From positions 868,001 to 932,000 of the forward strand of contig NZ_CP018617.1 in assembly GCF_002849855.1 (NCBI RefSeq): a stretch of DNA of 64,000 bases, written 5' to 3'. Source of the DNA: Vibrio azureus. GTDB taxonomy: Bacteria; Pseudomonadota; Gammaproteobacteria; Enterobacterales; Vibrionaceae. This document shows positions 11,006 through 50,079 of this stretch, piece after piece (the first letter of the stretch is position 1; each line of letters begins with the position of its first letter). A model generated the notes under the pieces. That model saw only the letters and a program-made list of their open reading frames with translations, was not told the DNA's origin and did not search any database. Position numbers and translations under genes: made by a program.

Positions 11006-12280
11006 ATGTTAACGTCAAATGCTGCCGTGCATCTGCCTGCGACCGTGCGTTGTAAGATCTCAGAGGCGCAGATCAAGCGATATGCCAGACGCCTTCATGT
11101 CAGACAGCTGAAAGATGACCGATATTCGGTGTACTTTCGCTATAAGAAAAACCGAGTGCAAGGCTCTTGGGTCTTTTATGAGTACAAAGATGGCAAGCAA
11201 AGCGCCCATGTGTTTGGCAAATACCCCAACTTAAGCGCGAAAGACGTCCCCGAGGTGGTTGAGCACATCGCCAAGCAGCGCTCAGTGGGGATCACAACAC
11301 GCGCGAATGAATTTACCACCGTCGATGAGCTGCTGATTTGGTATTTAGATATGGAGACGCGAAATCGACACTTATCGAGAGATCGACTGAATTCGCTTAA
11401 GCCCATGGTGGATGCCCACCTGATTTCTCGTCTGCATGGTGTAAAGATAGCGGGCCTGTCCCACCGTGAAATTGAACAGCAATTGATGAAGCCGTTACGC
11501 GAACAGCAGTATTCCATCAGTTATATTCGCTCGATATTTCAGGTGTTAAAGGTGGCCTTCAACCGGGCAAGAAAAATCAACAAAATCGGCCATAATCCGC
11601 TCAATGACATGATCTTCACTGACTTTGTCAAAGCCAGAATCCAGCCAAAGGGATGCAGTTTGCTGGTTGGGCAGACAGCAGAGTTATTGGTGCAGTTTGG
11701 GCAAGCTGAGCCTTTAACGCGCATGTTATGTTTGATGATGCTCAGCCATGGCACACGCATTGGGGAAACGCGCAAATCAAAATGGTGCAACATTTGTTTT
11801 ATCACCAAGCAGTGGAAAATTCCGATGCGGGACACCAAGACCAGAAAAGAGATCGTCTATCCATTAACCGATGAATGGGTGTGTTTGCTTAAGGCCTACA
11901 AAGCCTGGCAATTGGCGCATCATTATAAAGGCAACCATCTCTTTCCCGCCTCACCGCGAGATCGAAGCCCAATCTCAAGCACGGTGGCCAATCAGATGAT
12001 CAGAGCCATCGCGCATGGCCACTGGACCGCACACGATTTAAGAAAGTTAGCACGCACCGTGTGGGCCGATATAGGCATTGATTATCTGGTTGCAGAGACT
12101 CTACTGAATCATGCCAAAAACAAAATGGATCAAACGTATATCCACACGCATATAGAGCTGCAGAAATCAGAAGCACTCAAAGCCTATCATTTGTGGTTAA
12201 AAAATTGCTGGCGAACCTGTTTTATACCTGATTTTCAAAAAACGTTCCTCTTAATAAACGCAAATGAAATCAGTGATTAA
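11006..12280 (+). CDS. int: Prophage tyrosine recombinase (integrase)
   Basis: 424 residues. An arm-binding-type N-terminus (YSVYFRYKKNRVQGSW, HVFGKYPNLSAKDV) and a SAM-like core-binding domain precede the catalytic domain, which has R251 (HGTRIGE), H343-x-x-R346 (HDLRKL), H369 (LLNHAKN) and Y378 (QTYIHTH). These are the full set for a tyrosine recombinase that catalyses integration at att. It starts one base after gene D and shares the late operon's direction, with AGGAG just upstream. In P2 int lies on the opposite strand beyond ogr, so this layout is different. No excisionase-like gene is obvious beside it. Confidence 0.93.
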   Translation: MLTSNAAVHLPATVRCKISEAQIKRYARRLHVRQLKDDRYSVYFRYKKNRVQGSWVFYEYKDGKQSAHVFGKYPNLSAKDVPEVVEHIAKQRSVGITTRANEFTTVDELLIWYLDMETRNRHLSRDRLNSLKPMVDAHLISRLHGVKIAGLSHREIEQQLMKPLREQQYSISYIRSIFQVLKVAFNRARKINKIGHNPLNDMIFTDFVKARIQPKGCSLLVGQTAELLVQFGQAEPLTRMLCLMMLSHGTRIGETRKSKWCNICFITKQWKIPMRDTKTRKEIVYPLTDEWVCLLKAYKAWQLAHHYKGNHLFPASPRDRSPISSTVANQMIRAIAHGHWTAHDLRKLARTVWADIGIDYLVAETLLNHAKNKMDQTYIHTHIELQKSEALKAYHLWLKNCWRTCFIPDFQKTFLLINANEISD

Positions 12281-12318
12281 CCTCCACTCAAAATATAATC
12301 GCTGCGGACAGTATTACT

Positions 12319-12615
12319 ATGGGTAAATTTGGGGTAAAAGGTGACCTGAATCACAATTTAGTGGCCGAGGCGCAACGTGATCCTCACCAAGTGAAATGGT
12401 TGAAGCTGAGCAAGACACAATTACGCGTCTTGGATTCGATAGAGCAGGGTGAAGAAGTTACAGCGCAACTTATTTCTAAACGATGCGATTTGTCACCAAG
12501 TTGGGCAAGTTCGAATTTGAGAAGTTTAAATGAGAGATGTTACCTAACAAGAAGACATATTGGTTTAGATTGTGGGGGCATGGAGTTTCACTATCGTCGT
12601 TTAATGCCCCTGTGA
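12319..12615 (+). CDS. Winged-helix DNA-binding protein
   Basis: 98 residues. A winged-helix pattern runs from residue 28 (LSKTQLRVLDSIEQGEEVTAQLISKRC, then SWASSNLRSLNERCYLTRRHIG), resembling MarR-like or phage regulator folds. The C-terminus FHYRRLMPL is short, so there is little besides the DNA-binding module. It lies 39 bases after the integrase. It could regulate int, the nearby antirepressor, or act as a directionality factor; none of these can be settled here. Confidence 0.55.
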   Translation: MGKFGVKGDLNHNLVAEAQRDPHQVKWLKLSKTQLRVLDSIEQGEEVTAQLISKRCDLSPSWASSNLRSLNERCYLTRRHIGLDCGGMEFHYRRLMPL

Positions 12616-12953
12616 TGATGAAAGCTTAAAAAGGATCTTAAAAGTATCTATATAAAACAATTACATAGGTTCTTCTGGATCCTTCAAGTTAGCAAACGAG
12701 GCAACTGCTCGTGAAATAAAAATTTTTCGGGACGTATGGCCACCACCACCTCTAAAGAGATTTATGTGGTATTCAGTCGAACTTTTATTGAGCGTGATGC
12801 ATAACGCTCTATCAAGACAAGCTTTTGGTGCAAAGTTTAGTTGAGTGTTATGCTAAACTGATCTTCTCTCTAAATGATTCTCCATAAAATGTATTTAATT
12901 GAAAAAAATTTTTGTATAAAATTATCTACATTATTGTTTTTAATAATCTTTTT
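12616..12953. other. AT-rich gap at the prophage right end
   Basis: 338 bases with no convincing gene. A 22-codon ORF (12736-12804) without a good ribosome site reads MATTTSKEIYVVFSRT... and may be a decayed fragment. A run of A/T (12895-12960) precedes the secreted protein gene. No tRNA or terminator seen. Confidence 0.5.
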
Positions 12954-13340
12954 ATGCTAAAAATCATTTTAATCGTTGTGTCAATAATATTTACTTTTTG
13001 CGTTCAGGCTAACACGCTGGTTACAACCCATTTATTATGTGCGAATGATAAGGGTACAGAGTGGGATTGGGCCAATTGGAGTAACGGGGATTATATAGAG
13101 TTAAAAGGATACTGGGGGTCTCTACAGTATAAAGGAAAGTGGATTGGTTATTTTACTGTAGATAACAAACAATATGAGCTTTTGAGTGAATGTTCTTGTT
13201 TTACTGAGCAGTGTCTTAATTATTTCCCTCATCCCGCCGATGCTCTCAATAATTATTGGTATTTAATTAGAAATGCTGACACAAAGAAATTTTCAGGGGG
13301 CTATTACACTAAGTTCAATTATAACCCTTTCCCAACATAA
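12954..13340 (+). CDS. Small secreted cysteine-containing protein (unknown)
   Basis: 128 residues from the ATG at 12954; an in-frame TTG at 12912 would put extra hydrophobic residues before the signal. MLKIILIVVSIIFTFCVQA is a signal peptide. The mature part (about 108 residues) has four cysteines (LLCAND, ECSCFTEQC) and many aromatic residues (TEWDWANWSNGDYIEL), suggesting a small disulphide-bonded beta protein. The surroundings are strongly AT-rich compared with the tail genes, so it is probably a prophage cargo (moron) gene. No family recognised. Confidence 0.55.
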   Translation: MLKIILIVVSIIFTFCVQANTLVTTHLLCANDKGTEWDWANWSNGDYIELKGYWGSLQYKGKWIGYFTVDNKQYELLSECSCFTEQCLNYFPHPADALNNYWYLIRNADTKKFSGGYYTKFNYNPFPT

Positions 13341-13364
13341 TTATGCAAATATACCTCATCGGTC

Positions 13365-13399
13365 AAAAAAGGCGCTCCAATAATTTGAGCGCCTCTTTT
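13365..13399. terminator. Bidirectional terminator, copy 1 of a duplicated phnA-type terminator
   Basis: GGCGCTC (13371-13377) pairs with GAGCGCC (13387-13393), with A6 on the left and TCTTTT on the right, so it can act on both strands. It closes both the secreted protein gene (plus) and the antirepressor gene (minus). The same hairpin and flanks recur at 14645-14680. Confidence 0.8.
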
Positions 13400-13428
13400 A
13401 AATCTTCACGAAAAACAACAACGACTTC

Positions 13429-13442
13429 TTACGGCAATATTC
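13429..13442. repeat. Direct repeat, candidate attachment core (left copy)
   Basis: TTACGGCAATATTC here is identical to 14707-14720, where it forms the 3' end of a phnA-like gene. The homology extends through the neighbouring terminator (13365-13428 versus 14645-14706). Here the bases overlap the stop codon of the antirepressor. Confidence 0.6.
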
Positions 13443-14034
13443 ACCAACTTTTTCCCTTTGCCGATAATAATTCAGCCAATCTACAATTTGCAGTTTCGGC
13501 AATTCTTGCATAGTCCTCAATAGAAAAGTATCCAGGCTCATTCAGCAGCTCATGAAGCTTTGAACGCTCAAAGACCGTTACGTCATTGCCAACTGGAATA
13601 ACACCGATCACACGGCCGTTTTCTAATGTCATTAAAAGTTTGGTAGTAGTGGAGATAGGACTTGAGGGAGGGAGTTGGTTGGTTTCTTGATTCCAGTGTC
13701 GCCAGAGAACATCGTCACATTCGGTTTGGTATTGGATGACTTTATCGCGAATTTCTCTACGTATTCGACTAGGTTGCAGTGTTTGGAGCCAACCAAAGAG
13801 TTTTCGAAGTGGGATGCAGATACGTTCACGAGGTTTGTTATCAGAAGCAACCATGGTCATTATGACCATGGTCCAGCGTTCGGAGTTCCCAGTTAACTTT
13901 CTATACTGTGTTTTCCAATTTAAACCAATGCCTTCGACAATGGGTTTCATTGGTATGTAAGGTTCGTTGTTGTACTCAACGACCAATAGATTAGAACCGT
14001 AGAAAGGGACAATGACTTGATGATTGTTCGGCAT
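13441..14034 (-). CDS. Phage antirepressor with P22_AR_N domain
   Basis: 197 residues from the ATG at 14034, which follows GGAGG by 5 bases. The N-terminal ~110 residues are a P22_AR_N domain: VIVPFYGSNLLVVEYNNEPY, PMKPIVEGIGLNWKTQYRKL, then ICIPLRKLFGWLQTLQPSR and YQTECDDVLWRHW. The C-terminal part (LENGRVIGVIPVGNDV..) is unassigned. Such proteins inactivate prophage repressors. The frame is open upstream to 14232 through a sequence resembling Ash/Icd-like phage ORFs, but that stretch is better explained as a C4-type RNA. Its Shine-Dalgarno is part of a complementary set, so translation is probably antisense-controlled. Confidence 0.82.
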   Translation of the reverse strand: MPNNHQVIVPFYGSNLLVVEYNNEPYIPMKPIVEGIGLNWKTQYRKLTGNSERWTMVIMTMVASDNKPRERICIPLRKLFGWLQTLQPSRIRREIRDKVIQYQTECDDVLWRHWNQETNQLPPSSPISTTTKLLMTLENGRVIGVIPVGNDVTVFERSKLHELLNEPGYFSIEDYARIAETANCRLAELLSAKGKSW

Positions 14035-14089
14035 AAATGCCTCCGATGCAATGAGATTGAACATTGACCACTCAAAGGGACCAAACTTT

Positions 14090-14200
14090 GGTGGCGGACT
14101 GAACTGGGTTGGTCCTACCGCTGCATCGGAAGCGGCCAGCCTAAGCTGCCCAATCCAGCCCACCATAATACAGATGTGCGGATTCTGTGCGTAAAAAAAC
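14090..14200 (-). ncRNA. c4: C4-type antisense RNA (P1/P4 immunity RNA family)
   Basis: On the minus strand this segment holds CCGATGCA (b', 14129-14122) and GGACCAA (a', 14115-14109). Targets lie upstream: TTGGTCC (a1, 14260-14254) and TGCATCGG (b1, 14231-14224). They recur downstream: TTGGTCC (a2, 14084-14078) and TGCATCGG (b2, 14050-14043). The order a1-b1-b'-a'-a2-b2 is that of phage P1 c4. b' pairs with b2 over 12 bases (one G-U), covering the GGAGG of the antirepressor. In P1 the processed C4 RNA blocks translation of icd and so ant expression. Exact RNA ends are estimated. Confidence 0.72.
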
Positions 14201-14213
14201 CAGCAAGAGCTGG
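14193..14213 (-). terminator. Intrinsic terminator or processing hairpin in the C4 leader
   Basis: On the minus strand CCAGC-TCTT-GCTGG (14213-14200) is followed by TTTTTTT (14199-14193). It lies between target b1 and the C4 core. It could stop the leader transcript early or mark the C4 5' end. Confidence 0.6.
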
Positions 14214-14284
14214 CGTATACACACCGATGCAAGAGATTTAACTCTAAAGCGGGGGACCAATCCCGTCACTGGATTTTGCCAGTG

Positions 14285-14352
14285 AACTCAAATTATGAGC
14301 CTAGAGATACATTAAATCAAGATATGCTTTTGGGGCGATTGGTAAGACCAAT
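14285..14352 (-). promoter_or_regulatory. Leader promoter with PdhR/LldR-like palindrome
   Basis: On the minus strand TTGATT (14320-14315) and CATAAT (14297-14292) are spaced 17 bases, suitable for a sigma-70 promoter of the C4-antirepressor transcript. Just upstream lies ATTGGT-AAG-ACCAAT (14352-14338), a perfect palindrome matching the GntR-family PdhR/LldR consensus. A 5' stem-loop TCACTGG/CCAGTGA follows at 14284-14266. Regulator identity is inferred. Confidence 0.5.
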
Positions 14353-14393
14353 TTTAGTCTTTGGGGCGTTTTTGGGGCTTTTGGGGCTTTTTG
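14328..14393. repeat. GGGG-rich direct repeat, copy 1
   Basis: Contains 42 bases identical to the copy at 14551-14609, starting GGTAAGACCAATTTTAG and ending in iterated TTTGGGGC units. Four GGGG tracts could form a G-quadruplex. Overlaps the palindromic operator candidate. Confidence 0.75.
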
Positions 14394-14550
14394 ATTACAA
14401 GCACATGGGACAATTGAATAAATTTGCTCACTTTATTAGCAGGATTTAGGACAAATTTACGTGCATTCATCTGAACCTTTGTTCTTTTTTAATTTAATAT
14501 TATCAGACATTTAGACGTAATGACCCACAGAAAAAAAATTATCACGATTC

Positions 14551-14609
14551 TTTGGGGCAGTCGGTAAGACCAATTTTAGTCTTTGGGGCGTTTTTGGGGC
14601 TTTTTGGGG
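14551..14609. repeat. GGGG-rich direct repeat, copy 2
   Basis: Second copy of the unit at 14328-14393, 220 bases away. Here the palindrome is damaged on one side (GTCGGT-AAG-ACCAAT). The 160 bases between copies hold no gene that I can support. Confidence 0.75.
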
Positions 14610-14644
14610 TCAAACTGGCCAAATTCAGCCCATTTTTTCGATAA

Positions 14645-14680
14645 AAAAAAGGCGCTCTAACAATCTGAGCGCCTCTCTTA
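14645..14680 (-). terminator. Terminator of the phnA-like gene (copy 2)
   Basis: GGCGCTC (14651-14657) and GAGCGCC (14667-14673), with eight A on the left (U run on the minus strand). Same unit as 13365-13399. Confidence 0.85.
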
Positions 14681-14699
14681 AATCTCACTAAAACAATGA

Positions 14700-15257
14700 C
14701 TATTTTTTACGGCAATATTCCGCGATAACGTACATTGATTGACCGCCATTTGCCTTACCAGAAACCAGCTTCGGATCGTCGCCAAGGCTTATGCCACGTA
14801 TGACCGTGCCTTGTTTGATGACTTGGTTTGTACCTCGAACGGGTAGGTCTTTGATGACCGTTACGTCGTCACCTTTTTTCAATTCAGTGCCGTTACAATC
14901 AAGCGTTTTATCGTCATCTGACATGCCTTTCATCGCCCAATTCATCTGCTCTTCTTCCATATACATCATATCGAGCGCATCCTGAGCCCAGCTTTCTGTG
15001 TTTAGGCGAGTCAATTGACGCCAAGCTGTAACTTGTACTGCTGGAACTTGGCTCCACATGCTATCGTTCAAGCAGCGCCAGTGATTAATGTCTTTAGGGT
15101 CTTCGATTTCACTATGACACTTATCACAAATCATGATAGCAGTATCAACTGTGACATTGCTGTGTGGTGGCACAGCGTAAGCCGTGAGTTGAGAATCTGA
15201 TGCACACAATTCACATTTTGAATCGCAGCGTGAAAGAAGAGTCGTTTCGATAGACAT
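14700..15257 (-). CDS. PhnA/YjdM-like zinc-ribbon protein
   Basis: 185 residues. The N-terminal zinc ribbon has CELCAS near residue 16 and ICDKCHSEIED near 48. The C-terminal SH3-like part carries ELKKGDDVTVIKDLPVRG and GTVIRGISLGDDP, the PhnA domain. Despite the name, PhnA-family proteins are not shown to cleave phosphonates in general; the role in this organism is unknown. The gene is intact and ends at the proposed att core with its terminator just beyond. RBS and start are ordinary. Confidence 0.85.
   Translation of the reverse strand: MSIETTLLSRCDSKCELCASDSQLTAYAVPPHSNVTVDTAIMICDKCHSEIEDPKDINHWRCLNDSMWSQVPAVQVTAWRQLTRLNTESWAQDALDMMYMEEEQMNWAMKGMSDDDKTLDCNGTELKKGDDVTVIKDLPVRGTNQVIKQGTVIRGISLGDDPKLVSGKANGGQSMYVIAEYCRKK
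14707..14720. repeat. Direct repeat, candidate attachment core (right copy)
   Basis: TTACGGCAATATTC, identical to 13429-13442; here it encodes the last codons of the phnA-like protein (EYCRKK). Tyrosine integrases often use gene 3' ends, so this could be an att core. Confidence 0.55.
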
Positions 15258-48024: not shown

Positions 48025-50079
48025 CTACCAAGCAATACAAGGCCTTTCTTCCACGAAATTATGTTCTTTTAGTAAACTCCAATAGTTAGTATTACTAAAA
48101 TCATATTGATAAGAGTTATCTGACTTAGCTTTGTAATATTGAATCAAAGCTCTTGGCTGTTGTGACCATCCGTCTGTGATTTGAAAAACTTTGCTGTCAT
48201 CAAAAACATCATATCCAGGGTAGGCTTGAGGCTTACCACCATACATTCTAAGGAAGCGGCCTGTTGCTCTATTTCTCAATAATAACTGATTACCTTGTAC
48301 AGGCATTACCCACCATTGTTGATAAGCATTGCCTGCATTTGGGTATTTTGTATAAACCTTACCATTAGAGTCACTGTCTAACACTCGGCCAGTTTTCATT
48401 TGTTTAATGTTGTACCAAGAGTTGTTTTCTGGCCAATAGTCCCCGTAGGCTTTTTCAAAAGACCATAATTGATATGGATTTCCTGCATTTTGTGAATGCC
48501 CGTATACATTACCTTTTGAATCTCCATCAAGTACCCAATCTTTATTGTTTGACAGAGAAAGATTAATATAATGACCAGAAGGGGGTAAAAAATCACCTCT
48601 ATAAATAGCACCAGCTGCACCGACTTGACCTTTAGTTAGACACATTGATTTTTGGTCTTTCTTTTGTTCAGTATACGTTTCTAAAGTGGTAATATTCTGA
48701 GCACCTTCTGGTGCGCTATATTCTTTAATTTCTATTTCGCCTGTTGCAGCCTTATAGTTGACGATATGAAATTCACCCTTAAATGCGGCACTCGTAACAT
48801 ATACTGGTGTATTACCATATACCGAATGATTGTAGTGCTTATGTTGGTAAAAAGCGTGGTTGTGTCCTACAAATATCGCTATAGGATTATAAGTATCGAG
48901 TAAACTTCTAAATAGTTTCTTTTCGCTCTCTGTTGCCTCATTCCAATAATCATAGGCGTGGAAATTGATAATGATATCTTTAACACCTCTAATTTTTGCT
49001 AGCCTTAAGTCTTCTGCAAGCCAAGTTAAAGAAGATTTATAATCATAAGTACGCCCACCATGCCAAGTGCCATATGTGTATTTATAATAAGGTTTAAATT
49101 GAAGTTGAGTAAAGTGAACCCCTTTGTAATCCCAAGAGTAAGAAAGGCTGCCGACCTTATGTCCATCAGAAATACCCCCCCAGTCTTTACTGAAGTGTTC
49201 TAAAATAGGAGAGCGAGCATAATTATATTTAATTTTATCTTCCATTCTATTCATGCTGTACATCGCACAGCTATTCTCTGATGTACCATCTAGAGCTGCT
49301 TCAATACAATCATTTCGATTATTGGCAATATCATGATTACCAAGACCAACAAGAAGGGGACCTTTCACATTAGAATATACTTCTTCAAATGAATTCCACT
49401 GGCTTTTACGTCCATATTCAGTGAGATCACCGTTCATGATAGTAAAATCAACAGGAGTTTGATCGTACATTGCATTTAGAGCAGAAACCGTATTTCTGTT
49501 TATTTTATACCATGCGTCTTTATTTTTTCCGTCACCAGAAACTCTCCATGGCTGTGGATCGGCTGTCAAAGCAAATCGAATATCTTCATTCGTATCAACT
49601 TTATAGACAGCTTTCATCTCTTTATTCACGTCAAGATCCACACGACCACATGAAATATCTGAGCCTTTTTTAAGGAATACACCTTCTTTATACGGTGGGT
49701 TTGCACCGCAATTACCATTTTCATTCAGGTCCCATGAGTTATAAGAGCCTTTTGGAACAACACTGGTCGCAGTTTTGAATGAAGCGACAATATTTCCCTG
49801 TAGATCGGCTAATTGCCACTCATGATCAAAACGACCATTACTATTAACATTATATGTCAATGGAGAATGGCAAAATACTCCTGTACTTCCTTTCGGAATA
49901 GTGGATGATTCGCTGGTTGATGCATGTGTATTTGCAAAGCTTTGAGTTGTTCCAAATTGAAAATCTCGAGCCGTGTTGGTCACATCAATGCAAAGTGATT
50001 GCGCTGCGGTTCCAGCGTATGAGGCTGCACTCGCCATCATACTTGTGGAAGCTAATATATATATAAGTTGCTTATTCAA
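48025..50079 (-). CDS. Secreted metallophosphoesterase with ricin-type lectin domain
   Basis: 684 residues. Signal peptide MNKQLIYILASTSMMASAAS. An N-terminal cysteine-bearing beta domain (about 25-165) is unassigned. The calcineurin-like phosphoesterase (about 170-450) shows ADPQPW in place of D-x-H, GDLTEYG, GLGNHD, NFHAYD and VGHNHAF. A C-terminal beta-trefoil (about 490-620) has repeated Q-x-W units (NAGNPYQLWSFE, NAGNAYQQWWV, RVLDSDSNGK). Enzyme plus carbohydrate-binding module points to a secreted enzyme or toxin; substrate unknown. No close operon partner. Confidence 0.75.
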   Translation of the reverse strand: MNKQLIYILASTSMMASAASYAGTAAQSLCIDVTNTARDFQFGTTQSFANTHASTSESSTIPKGSTGVFCHSPLTYNVNSNGRFDHEWQLADLQGNIVASFKTATSVVPKGSYNSWDLNENGNCGANPPYKEGVFLKKGSDISCGRVDLDVNKEMKAVYKVDTNEDIRFALTADPQPWRVSGDGKNKDAWYKINRNTVSALNAMYDQTPVDFTIMNGDLTEYGRKSQWNSFEEVYSNVKGPLLVGLGNHDIANNRNDCIEAALDGTSENSCAMYSMNRMEDKIKYNYARSPILEHFSKDWGGISDGHKVGSLSYSWDYKGVHFTQLQFKPYYKYTYGTWHGGRTYDYKSSLTWLAEDLRLAKIRGVKDIIINFHAYDYWNEATESEKKLFRSLLDTYNPIAIFVGHNHAFYQHKHYNHSVYGNTPVYVTSAAFKGEFHIVNYKAATGEIEIKEYSAPEGAQNITTLETYTEQKKDQKSMCLTKGQVGAAGAIYRGDFLPPSGHYINLSLSNNKDWVLDGDSKGNVYGHSQNAGNPYQLWSFEKAYGDYWPENNSWYNIKQMKTGRVLDSDSNGKVYTKYPNAGNAYQQWWVMPVQGNQLLLRNRATGRFLRMYGGKPQAYPGYDVFDDSKVFQITDGWSQQPRALIQYYKAKSDNSYQYDFSNTNYWSLLKEHNFVEERPCIAW

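Follow-up and report, generated by a model that had tools for sequence, protein, structure and literature searches.

A probable complete C4-type antisense RNA switch at the ribosome site of an antirepressor gene in a Vibrio prophage

Introduction

The leader of an antirepressor gene located in the 64-kb stretch of Vibrio azureus DNA analysed here (the window) raises the question of what it encodes: an antisense RNA switch of the phage P1 c4 type, as proposed in a sequence-only reading of the locus, or the beginning of a protein, as an open reading frame running across it would have it. C4 RNAs have been described in Proteobacteria and phages, and the c4-a1b1 motif in gammaproteobacteria (excerpts of PMC2864571), with predictions that include the Vibrionales according to excerpts of PMC5320573. 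The P1 c4 system is also treated in excerpts of PMC8546580 and PMC12197685, and 21 C4-like sRNAs (Group 1) have been reported in Acinetobacter baumannii AB5075 (excerpts of PMC5320573). Titles and abstract openings naming 'C4 antisense' together with Vibrio, a scope that leaves most subscription journals outside, gave no further pointer to Vibrio C4 loci.

Results and Discussion

The leader carries a C4 RNA and six exactly matching boxes

The sequence-only reading had proposed as checks a search with the Rfam C4 covariance model and the folding of the leader. The C4 model (RF01695) matched positions 14170-14087 of the minus strand with 67.6 bits (cut-off 45), C4 being the only Rfam family over its cut-off in the whole window, and both the C4 fold and a terminator hairpin were more stable than those of shuffled sequences. 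The features of the leader, in the order of reading of the minus strand, are the following:

14329..14386, minus strand: 58-bp repeat with the palindrome ATTGGTCTTACCAAT, upstream of the promoter (second copy at 14551-14608), possible operator
14292..14320, minus strand: candidate sigma-70 promoter TTGATT-17-CATAAT, 9 of 12 consensus positions, not significant alone
14194..14285, minus strand: isrK-like 5' leader RNA with the intrinsic terminator as its expected end (Rfam isrK 48.4 bits, cut-off 50)
14260-14254, minus strand: box a1, TTGGTCC, exact complement of a', covarying across loci
14231-14224, minus strand: box b1, TGCATCGG, exact complement of b', covarying across loci
14192..14214, minus strand: intrinsic terminator between b1 and C4, hairpin z -3.1
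14087..14170, minus strand: C4 antisense RNA, RF01695 67.6 bits, fold z -4.9
14129-14122, minus strand: b', CCGATGCA, in the second loop of C4, exact
14115-14109, minus strand: a', GGACCAA, exact
14084-14078, minus strand: box a2, TTGGTCC, exact
14050-14043, minus strand: box b2, TGCATCGG, exact, running into GGAGG
14039..14050, minus strand: b2 with the antirepressor Shine-Dalgarno (SD) sequence, TGCATCGGAGGC, 12-bp duplex with C4
13441..14034, minus strand: antirepressor of 197 aa with a P22_AR_N domain (Pfam PF10547, PHROG anti-repressor Ant)

All six boxes are exact, with two motifs upstream, their complements in reverse order in the middle of the leader and both motifs again downstream, and the a1-b1-b'-a'-a2-b2 order that had been likened to phage P1 c4 agrees with the annotation of the P1 record. 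The complementarity of a' and b' to upstream and downstream boxes in a fixed order, and the overlap of b2 with the ribosome-binding site of the next gene, both of them traits by which C4 systems are recognized, were found. The proposed merging of the last motif with GGAGG into a 12-bp duplex was recovered with one qualification, since b2 and the following AGGC pair with C4 over 12 nt by 11 Watson-Crick pairs and one G-U pair (-20.7 kcal/mol). The claim that the antirepressor is the target was also supported, as b2 lies on its own SD sequence and the P22_AR_N domain was confirmed with 133.5 bits against a curated cut-off of 30.7.

When the flanks were shuffled 20,000 times keeping their dinucleotides, the single-box P values were 0.011 for b1, 0.044 for a1, 0.038 for a2 and 0.002 for b2; two or more targets were obtained in 0.28% of the shuffles and all four at the observed lengths in none of the 20,000. 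The a2 box starts 6 nt behind the likely end of C4 (14090, at CCACC, where P1 C4 also ends), and the starts of a2 and b2 are 34 nt apart. From the end of b2 (14043) it is 9 nt to the antirepressor ATG (14034), which leaves no room for an intervening gene, so that an icd-like gene is absent from this position.

The RNase P-processed form of C4 likely extends from about 14164 to 14090; its GGU start, present in the sequence, is shared with P1, and the processing itself is proposed by analogy with the P1 annotation and with excerpts of PMC5320573, in which RNase P processing is reported for P1/P7 C4 and suggested for A. baumannii. Candidates for the promoter and the terminator-like hairpin that had been claimed to complete the leader are both present, although neither is significant in the scans alone (4 promoters found vs 3.2 expected, and 1 terminator found vs 1.3 expected). 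By eye, a like terminator hairpin occurs at the same place in related loci, and like promoter hexamers are found at the same place in L012 and L014 and partly in G040. The two copies of the 58-bp repeat are 93% alike and contain the palindrome and GCCCCAAA repeats; elsewhere in the genome the repeat was found in the other copy of the unit (see below) and as one short match on C1 only.

With permissive limits, the isrK model (RF01394) scored 48.4 bits in the window and the c4-a1b1 model (RF03163) 25.8 bits (cut-off 46.7), both below their cut-offs. Among 12 related loci fetched by protein search with the antirepressor unit, the isrK stretch exceeded its cut-off in nine, and c4-a1b1 was under its cut-off in all 12. 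As yardsticks, phage P1 gave 68.8 bits for C4, 51 for c4-a1b1 (over the cut-off) and 35.1 for isrK, and the P4 immunity region gave 74.9, 44.1 (under the cut-off) and 60.8 bits, respectively. Set alongside P1 and P4, these scores indicate that the window leader has the same architecture and combines the leader features in its own way.

Boxes change together with the C4 words across genomes

A genus survey was carried out with the C4 model in 227 Vibrio genomes, with at most 18 candidates scored per genome, and C4 was found at E 0.001 or better in 55 of them and over the cut-off in 54. A set of 119 sites from 46 genomes, best matches first and with one further chosen site left out because it fell beyond the fetched regions, comprised 113 distinct C4 sequences, in which the stems are conserved and a' and b' are very variable. 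Once repeated pairs had been removed, together with a site whose flank was short, 98 code pairs were compared with 10,000 permutations of the same words and flanks; the sites share ancestry and are not independent. The mean longest own complement was 7.56 nt for b2 (permuted mean 4.61, maximum 5.04), 6.97 for b1 (5.12, maximum 5.47), 6.82 for a2 (4.66, maximum 5.05) and 7.04 for a1 (5.17, maximum 5.55), and the own word tied or led all 98 words in 63, 42, 65 and 59 of the 98 flanks, respectively.

In a wider draw of the class, C4 was present in 24 of 369 genomes. In 19 loci from 19 other genera, with the genome of the window left out, own and permuted means were 8.21 vs 4.74 for b2, 7.21 vs 5.08 for b1, 6.95 vs 4.84 for a2 and 7.21 vs 5.52 for a1, and none of 20,000 permutations reached the observed mean at any target. 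Outside the genus, a tandem array of four C4 matches within 1.4 kb was observed in G487 (C9:1700-3092).

Among the 96 distinct-code Vibrio sites with a called start, b2 had at least 6 nt in 78, and it overlapped the SD sequence in 69 of these; 18 sites were without a 6-nt b2 and 18 without a 6-nt b1. An SD tetramer was contained in 33 of the 78 b2 words vs only one of the 78 b1 words. Therefore, b2 is the ribosome site and b1 is not.

C4 was over the cut-off in 10 of the 12 antirepressor-unit relatives, weak in L010 (35.8 bits) and not found in L008, whose match leaves the N-terminus unmatched. Boxes were compared in 11 loci, that is, the 12 without L008 and L016 (which repeats L006) and with G040, whose antirepressor is 83% identical to that of the window. 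Ten of the 11 keep four targets of 6 to 11 bp in the expected places while the words change, with energies of -8.6 kcal/mol or better for a1 and a2, -7.9 for b1 and -9.9 for b2, whereas in L010 the best duplexes are interrupted, weak or misplaced. The weak duplexes of L010 and the lack of C4 in L008 suggest that some related copies may be dead. In L012, an extra C4 (positions 557-639, 53.5 bits) precedes the complete switch, and by eye a further C4-like stretch lies upstream; this extra C4 is possibly an orphan antisense RNA able to silence other codes.

Proposed mechanism and alternative modes of action

The observed RNA family, boxes, covariation and SD overlap make it very probable that the Vibrio prophage carries in the window a complete antisense RNA switch of the C4 type, for which the following course of transcription, processing, repression and competition is proposed. 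A single transcript would start near 14286. Part of the transcripts would stop at the terminator near 14192, yielding a short RNA with a1 and b1, and the remaining ones would run through C4 into the antirepressor gene. RNase P would presumably excise C4, which would pair with a2 and b2 of the antirepressor mRNA; because b' would cover the antirepressor GGAGG, the antirepressor would not be translated and the prophage repressor would stay active. In the absence of a resident C4, as in a phage entering a new cell, the antirepressor would be made first. The short a1-b1 RNA could compete for C4 and would thereby release the antirepressor, a competition that would join the P1 c4 and Gifsy-1 IsrK observations in one scheme. 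This reading is weakened by the c4-a1b1 and isrK scores below cut-off at the window, by the Vibrio sites whose b1 or b2 falls short of 6 nt, and by the limited share of flanks, 42 to 65 of 98 depending on the target, for which the own word ranks first.

Activation of the IsrK type could instead dominate, with the terminated a1-b1 RNA opening in trans a closed long mRNA and free C4 playing a minor part. In Gifsy-1, IsrK supplied in trans raised anrP translation more than 100-fold by pairing with the downstream leader (excerpts of PMC4825925), and in the window cis pairing of a1/b1 with a'/b' is predicted for the full leader, whose 5' part scores just under the isrK cut-off that most relatives exceed. 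This alternative is possible, although unlikely, given that b2 is a stronger partner of b' than b1 at the window (-18.7 vs -13.9 kcal/mol) and is placed on the SD sequence; the two roles can coexist.

Rather unlikely is a control of the P4 CI type, in which C4 would pair with a1-b1 on the nascent transcript to cause early termination and SD occlusion would be secondary. The terminator between b1 and C4 and the matching of the P4 CI region to the same three Rfam models agree with it, and in P4 the CI RNA is described as causing termination through pairing with sites on either side of it (excerpts of PMC4825925), but termination alone would not require the overlap of b2 with the SD sequence, which was found in most scored loci (above), and by eye also in P4 and partly in P1.

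Comparison with known systems

The immI region of P1 (c4-icd-ant) shares with the window the a1-b1-C4-a2-b2 order and an antirepressor downstream; in the P1 record a1 is annotated at 48255-48261, b1 at 48269-48276, C4 at 48343-48419, a2 at 48423-48429 and b2 at 48452-48459, and icd and ant1 start at 48470 and 48688. The C4 scores are similar (68.8 bits in P1 and 67.6 in the window), as are the distances from the end of the C4 match to the start codon (47 and 52 nt, respectively). However, in P1 icd (73 aa) is directly behind b2 and is followed by ant1/ant2, whereas in the window the antirepressor comes first and there is no icd. The P1 record places a C1 operator at the c4 promoter, and at the window leader the 58-bp repeats are found instead. 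BLASTP of P1 Ant1 and the window antirepressor gave short weak matches, the best with E 0.018.

The P4 CI region carries its three Rfam models on one strand, as the window does. By eye, the first gene, which encodes 65 aa and follows C4 at 54 nt, has as its SD sequence TTCACAGGAGG, complementary to the C4 loop, and the P4 record has an ORF 'cI' running across the RNA, like the ORF of the window. That first gene, kil, encodes a small toxic protein and not an antirepressor. Control in P4 is described as termination (excerpts of PMC4825925). The Gifsy-1 isrK-orf45-anrP region of Salmonella is built likewise, its terminated leader RNA being followed by a complementary stretch and an antirepressor-like gene (excerpts of PMC4825925), but there a 45-codon ORF couples translation and none was seen at the window.

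In A. baumannii the C4-like sRNAs are multi-copy, with variable specificity loops and an RNase P site GGW, and host transcripts or incoming phages are suggested as targets by the authors (excerpts of PMC5320573). Unlike this suggestion, most of the Vibrio copies examined are accompanied by an a2/b2 pair and a directly following gene of their own. The window switch adds a complete new member to the C4 family, one whose direct target is the antirepressor.

The open reading frame across the RNA

13441..14232, minus strand: 263-aa ORF crossing C4 and entering the antirepressor gene (ant), not regarded as a protein, its frame not being conserved

The sequence-only reading had taken the 'Ash/Icd-like' ORF across the leader as probably not a protein. 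An ORF does lie across the RNA, but the label merges it with P1 Icd, which is a separate gene downstream of C4. The judgement that it is no protein was supported by its lack of a conserved frame and of a C4 ATG with an SD sequence. At the 109 distinct C4 sites compared in Vibrio, the three frames across the RNA were open in 41, 20 and 63, the downstream gene was in frame 0, 1 or 2 relative to C4 in 42, 36 and 31, and an SD sequence was found before the downstream start in 102 sites and before a C4 ATG in none. In the 11 relatives, the frame of the window was never open into ant, and the frame entering ant was open through C4 in two (not the frame of the window) and stopped in nine. Pfam searches of the ORF up to E 0.1 gave nothing beyond P22_AR_N and a sub-cut-off HTH, NCBIfam gave no match, and no Ash or Icd match appeared in either; a conserved coding frame with a translation start, as would be expected of an Ash/Icd-like gene, was not found for this ORF. 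Since no single frame is kept, the downstream gene occurs in all frames and the C4 ATGs are without SD sequences, the ORF is best read as a by-product of the structured RNA.

Prophage context of the switch

A prophage of about 46 kb, with inferred ends at about 836.5 and 883.0 kb of G000 C2, carries the C4-ant unit at one of its ends and contains genes for an integrase, a CI/LexA-like repressor (L003:11480-12145), CII, an O-like replication protein, terminase, portal and a gpD-like tail protein; the antirepressor could act on this CI/LexA-like repressor. A reverse transcriptase gene is also present in this prophage (L004 6210-7733), its best PADLOC match being Drt8 (502 bits).

13365..13442, no strand assigned: copy of the phnA 3' end with terminator, att-like (partner 14645-14720, 84.6% identity over 78 nt)

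The ant-C4 unit lies between the two copies of the terminator-bearing phnA 3' end, which suggests integration at the phnA end. A 3.0-kb segment (window 11978-14979), comprising the end of a second integrase, a wHTH ORF, a 142-aa ORF, ant-C4 and the 3' part of phnA, is directly repeated at the left end of the prophage (G000 C2:833557-836545) with 95% identity, or 98.4% over 13001-14979, and different integrase genes lie near its two ends. This duplication accounts for the two C4 copies in the genome. One or both copies inside the repeat could be relics, but a unit that has lost its function is improbable, since no damage is visible in the boxes, the SD sequence, the C4 fold or the 197-aa frame, the two C4 copies score equally, and the second antirepressor is 98% identical over residues 1-194 with no internal stop.

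Weaker still is the reading of the ORF across the leader as a real Ash/Icd-like protein or as an N-terminal extension of the antirepressor to 263 aa, which is highly improbable despite a frame open from 14232 to 13441, given the mixed frames, the missing SD sequences, the 11 relatives and the domain searches described above.

Antirepressor relatives at E 1e-10 or better were found in eight of 226 genomes of the genus, including that of the window. L012-L014 share the neighbours C4-ant, variable accessory gene, wHTH ORF and integrase, and phage-end synteny rests on these loci because an integrase scan of viral contigs yielded one relative, identical to the query. C4 and isrK were over their cut-offs in all three Vibrio phage records tested, out of five found by DNA similarity, and C4 is unannotated in the three. 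In phage O395 (AY147036.1, L127 2828-2912) C4 (72.7 bits) precedes ORF14c, and in the other two (L128 3017-3100 and L129 3004-3087; 69.2 and 67.2 bits) it precedes noted YoqD-like antirepressors, with isrK in front in each case. C4-ant was also observed beside defence-like genes (L013 36-2653 and 3746-5062; L128 1408-2678), namely IetA/IetS-like genes, a weak PD-Lambda-4_B match and a trio noted as PD-T4-9 (Vibrio phage record).

A multi-copy C4 repertoire in Vibrio

Ten genomes were searched again with up to 150 candidates per genome, and at least 27, 23, 22, 21, 18, 16, 14, 13, 13 and 7 C4 matches were obtained, these counts being lower bounds; nine Vibrio genomes (including G060, G170, G133, G201 and G001) thus contain at least 13-27 matches each. 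The ten genomes contributed 66 of the fetched sites; of these, 62 are followed by a gene of 40-100 aa, two by one of 101-170 aa and none by a longer gene, with no called start in two. The 53 sites from the other 36 genomes precede genes of 40-100 aa (10 sites), 101-170 aa (8), more than 170 aa (31, some of these proteins being possibly cut by the fetched stretch) or less than 40 aa (1), with three sites lacking a called start, and by eye many of the long first genes resemble KilA-N, Rha or Ant antirepressors. Few-copy C4 therefore tends to guard an antirepressor and many-copy C4 a small protein.

Inspection by eye of 20 of the 27 copies in G060 revealed mostly a leader hairpin followed by C4, then an SD box and a small ORF, in many cases with another hairpin at the end. 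The neighbours of ten many-copy loci, also viewed by eye, were ordinary genes on both sides in several cases and phage-like genes in others. At L154 and L155 (G060 C1:360001-396000), five C4 units were observed by eye within 25 kb among Rhs-like genes, the repeated units being 84-98% alike.

The codes of each genome were tested against each other with fetched sites only, repeats removed, and cross pairs were defined as those within 2 kcal/mol of the own pair:

G060: own target best 17/17; own C4 best for 17 targets; cross pairs 9/272; 15 distinct codes
G170: own target best 17/17; own C4 best for 13 targets; cross pairs 8/272
G001: own target best 11/13; own C4 best for 9 targets; cross pairs 13/156
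G127: own target best 8/8; own C4 best for 7 targets; cross pairs 1/56
G186: own target best 6/6; own C4 best for 6 targets; cross pairs 1/30
G201: own target best 6/6; own C4 best for 6 targets; cross pairs 1/30
G133: own target best 4/5; own C4 best for 4 targets; cross pairs 4/20

These counts show that the codes are largely but not wholly orthogonal. Selection for orthogonality within a genome was not apparent; identical codes occur in 3 of 507 within-genome pairs vs 25 of 8,666 between-genome pairs; orthogonality may simply come from drift. A general reading of the solitary C4 units as mobile elements was discarded: direct repeats scoring at least 18 are in excess around C4 units (14 of 112 vs 1 of 632 mismatched flank pairs), but these repeats vary in length and position, and the window's own unit accounts for two of the 14, so that no common element ends were established.

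Six first-gene proteins, some from other kinds of sites, had no Pfam match under E 0.03 and one PHROG match, of unknown function (4.2e-9). One small-protein family has 16 homologues named hypothetical or uncharacterized, and its AlphaFold model is one long helix (pLDDT 83.9, pTM 0.50). No Vibrio first gene was matched in BLASTP searches with P1 Icd and the P4 small protein, and profile comparison of this family with P1 Icd gave a probability of 0.6%, which makes the likeness of the small proteins to Icd positional only.

In a tentative reading, the window switch would belong to a large repertoire, C4 having become in several Vibrio lineages a modular address-coded lock that has spread through the genome to as many as 27 or more sites, frequently in the form of isolated units about 0.65 kb long, with a separate protein of 40-100 aa guarded by every copy; such units may form RNA-antitoxin/toxin modules with mutually orthogonal codes and not be prophage remnants. 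The possible toxin function is suggested by the equivalent first genes, Icd in P1 (annotated as inhibitor of cell division) and the toxic Kil in P4.

Conclusions

The window offers a clear case of a C4 whose target box lies directly on the ribosome site of an antirepressor, and P1 c4, P4 CI and Gifsy-1 IsrK can be viewed as one six-box device. The comparison reveals a code-bearing C4 repertoire within a genus and answers firmly the question of the ORF over the leader. The case also argues against annotating ORFs that overlap C4 as proteins. For multi-copy C4 RNAs, known from A. baumannii, it suggests that targets in cis are possible, and the genus-wide comparison makes the code testable, as the a'/b' words predict the message silenced by each RNA. 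If the tentative reading of the many-copy units is true, C4 would represent a type I-like antitoxin of a new class, addressed by two words.
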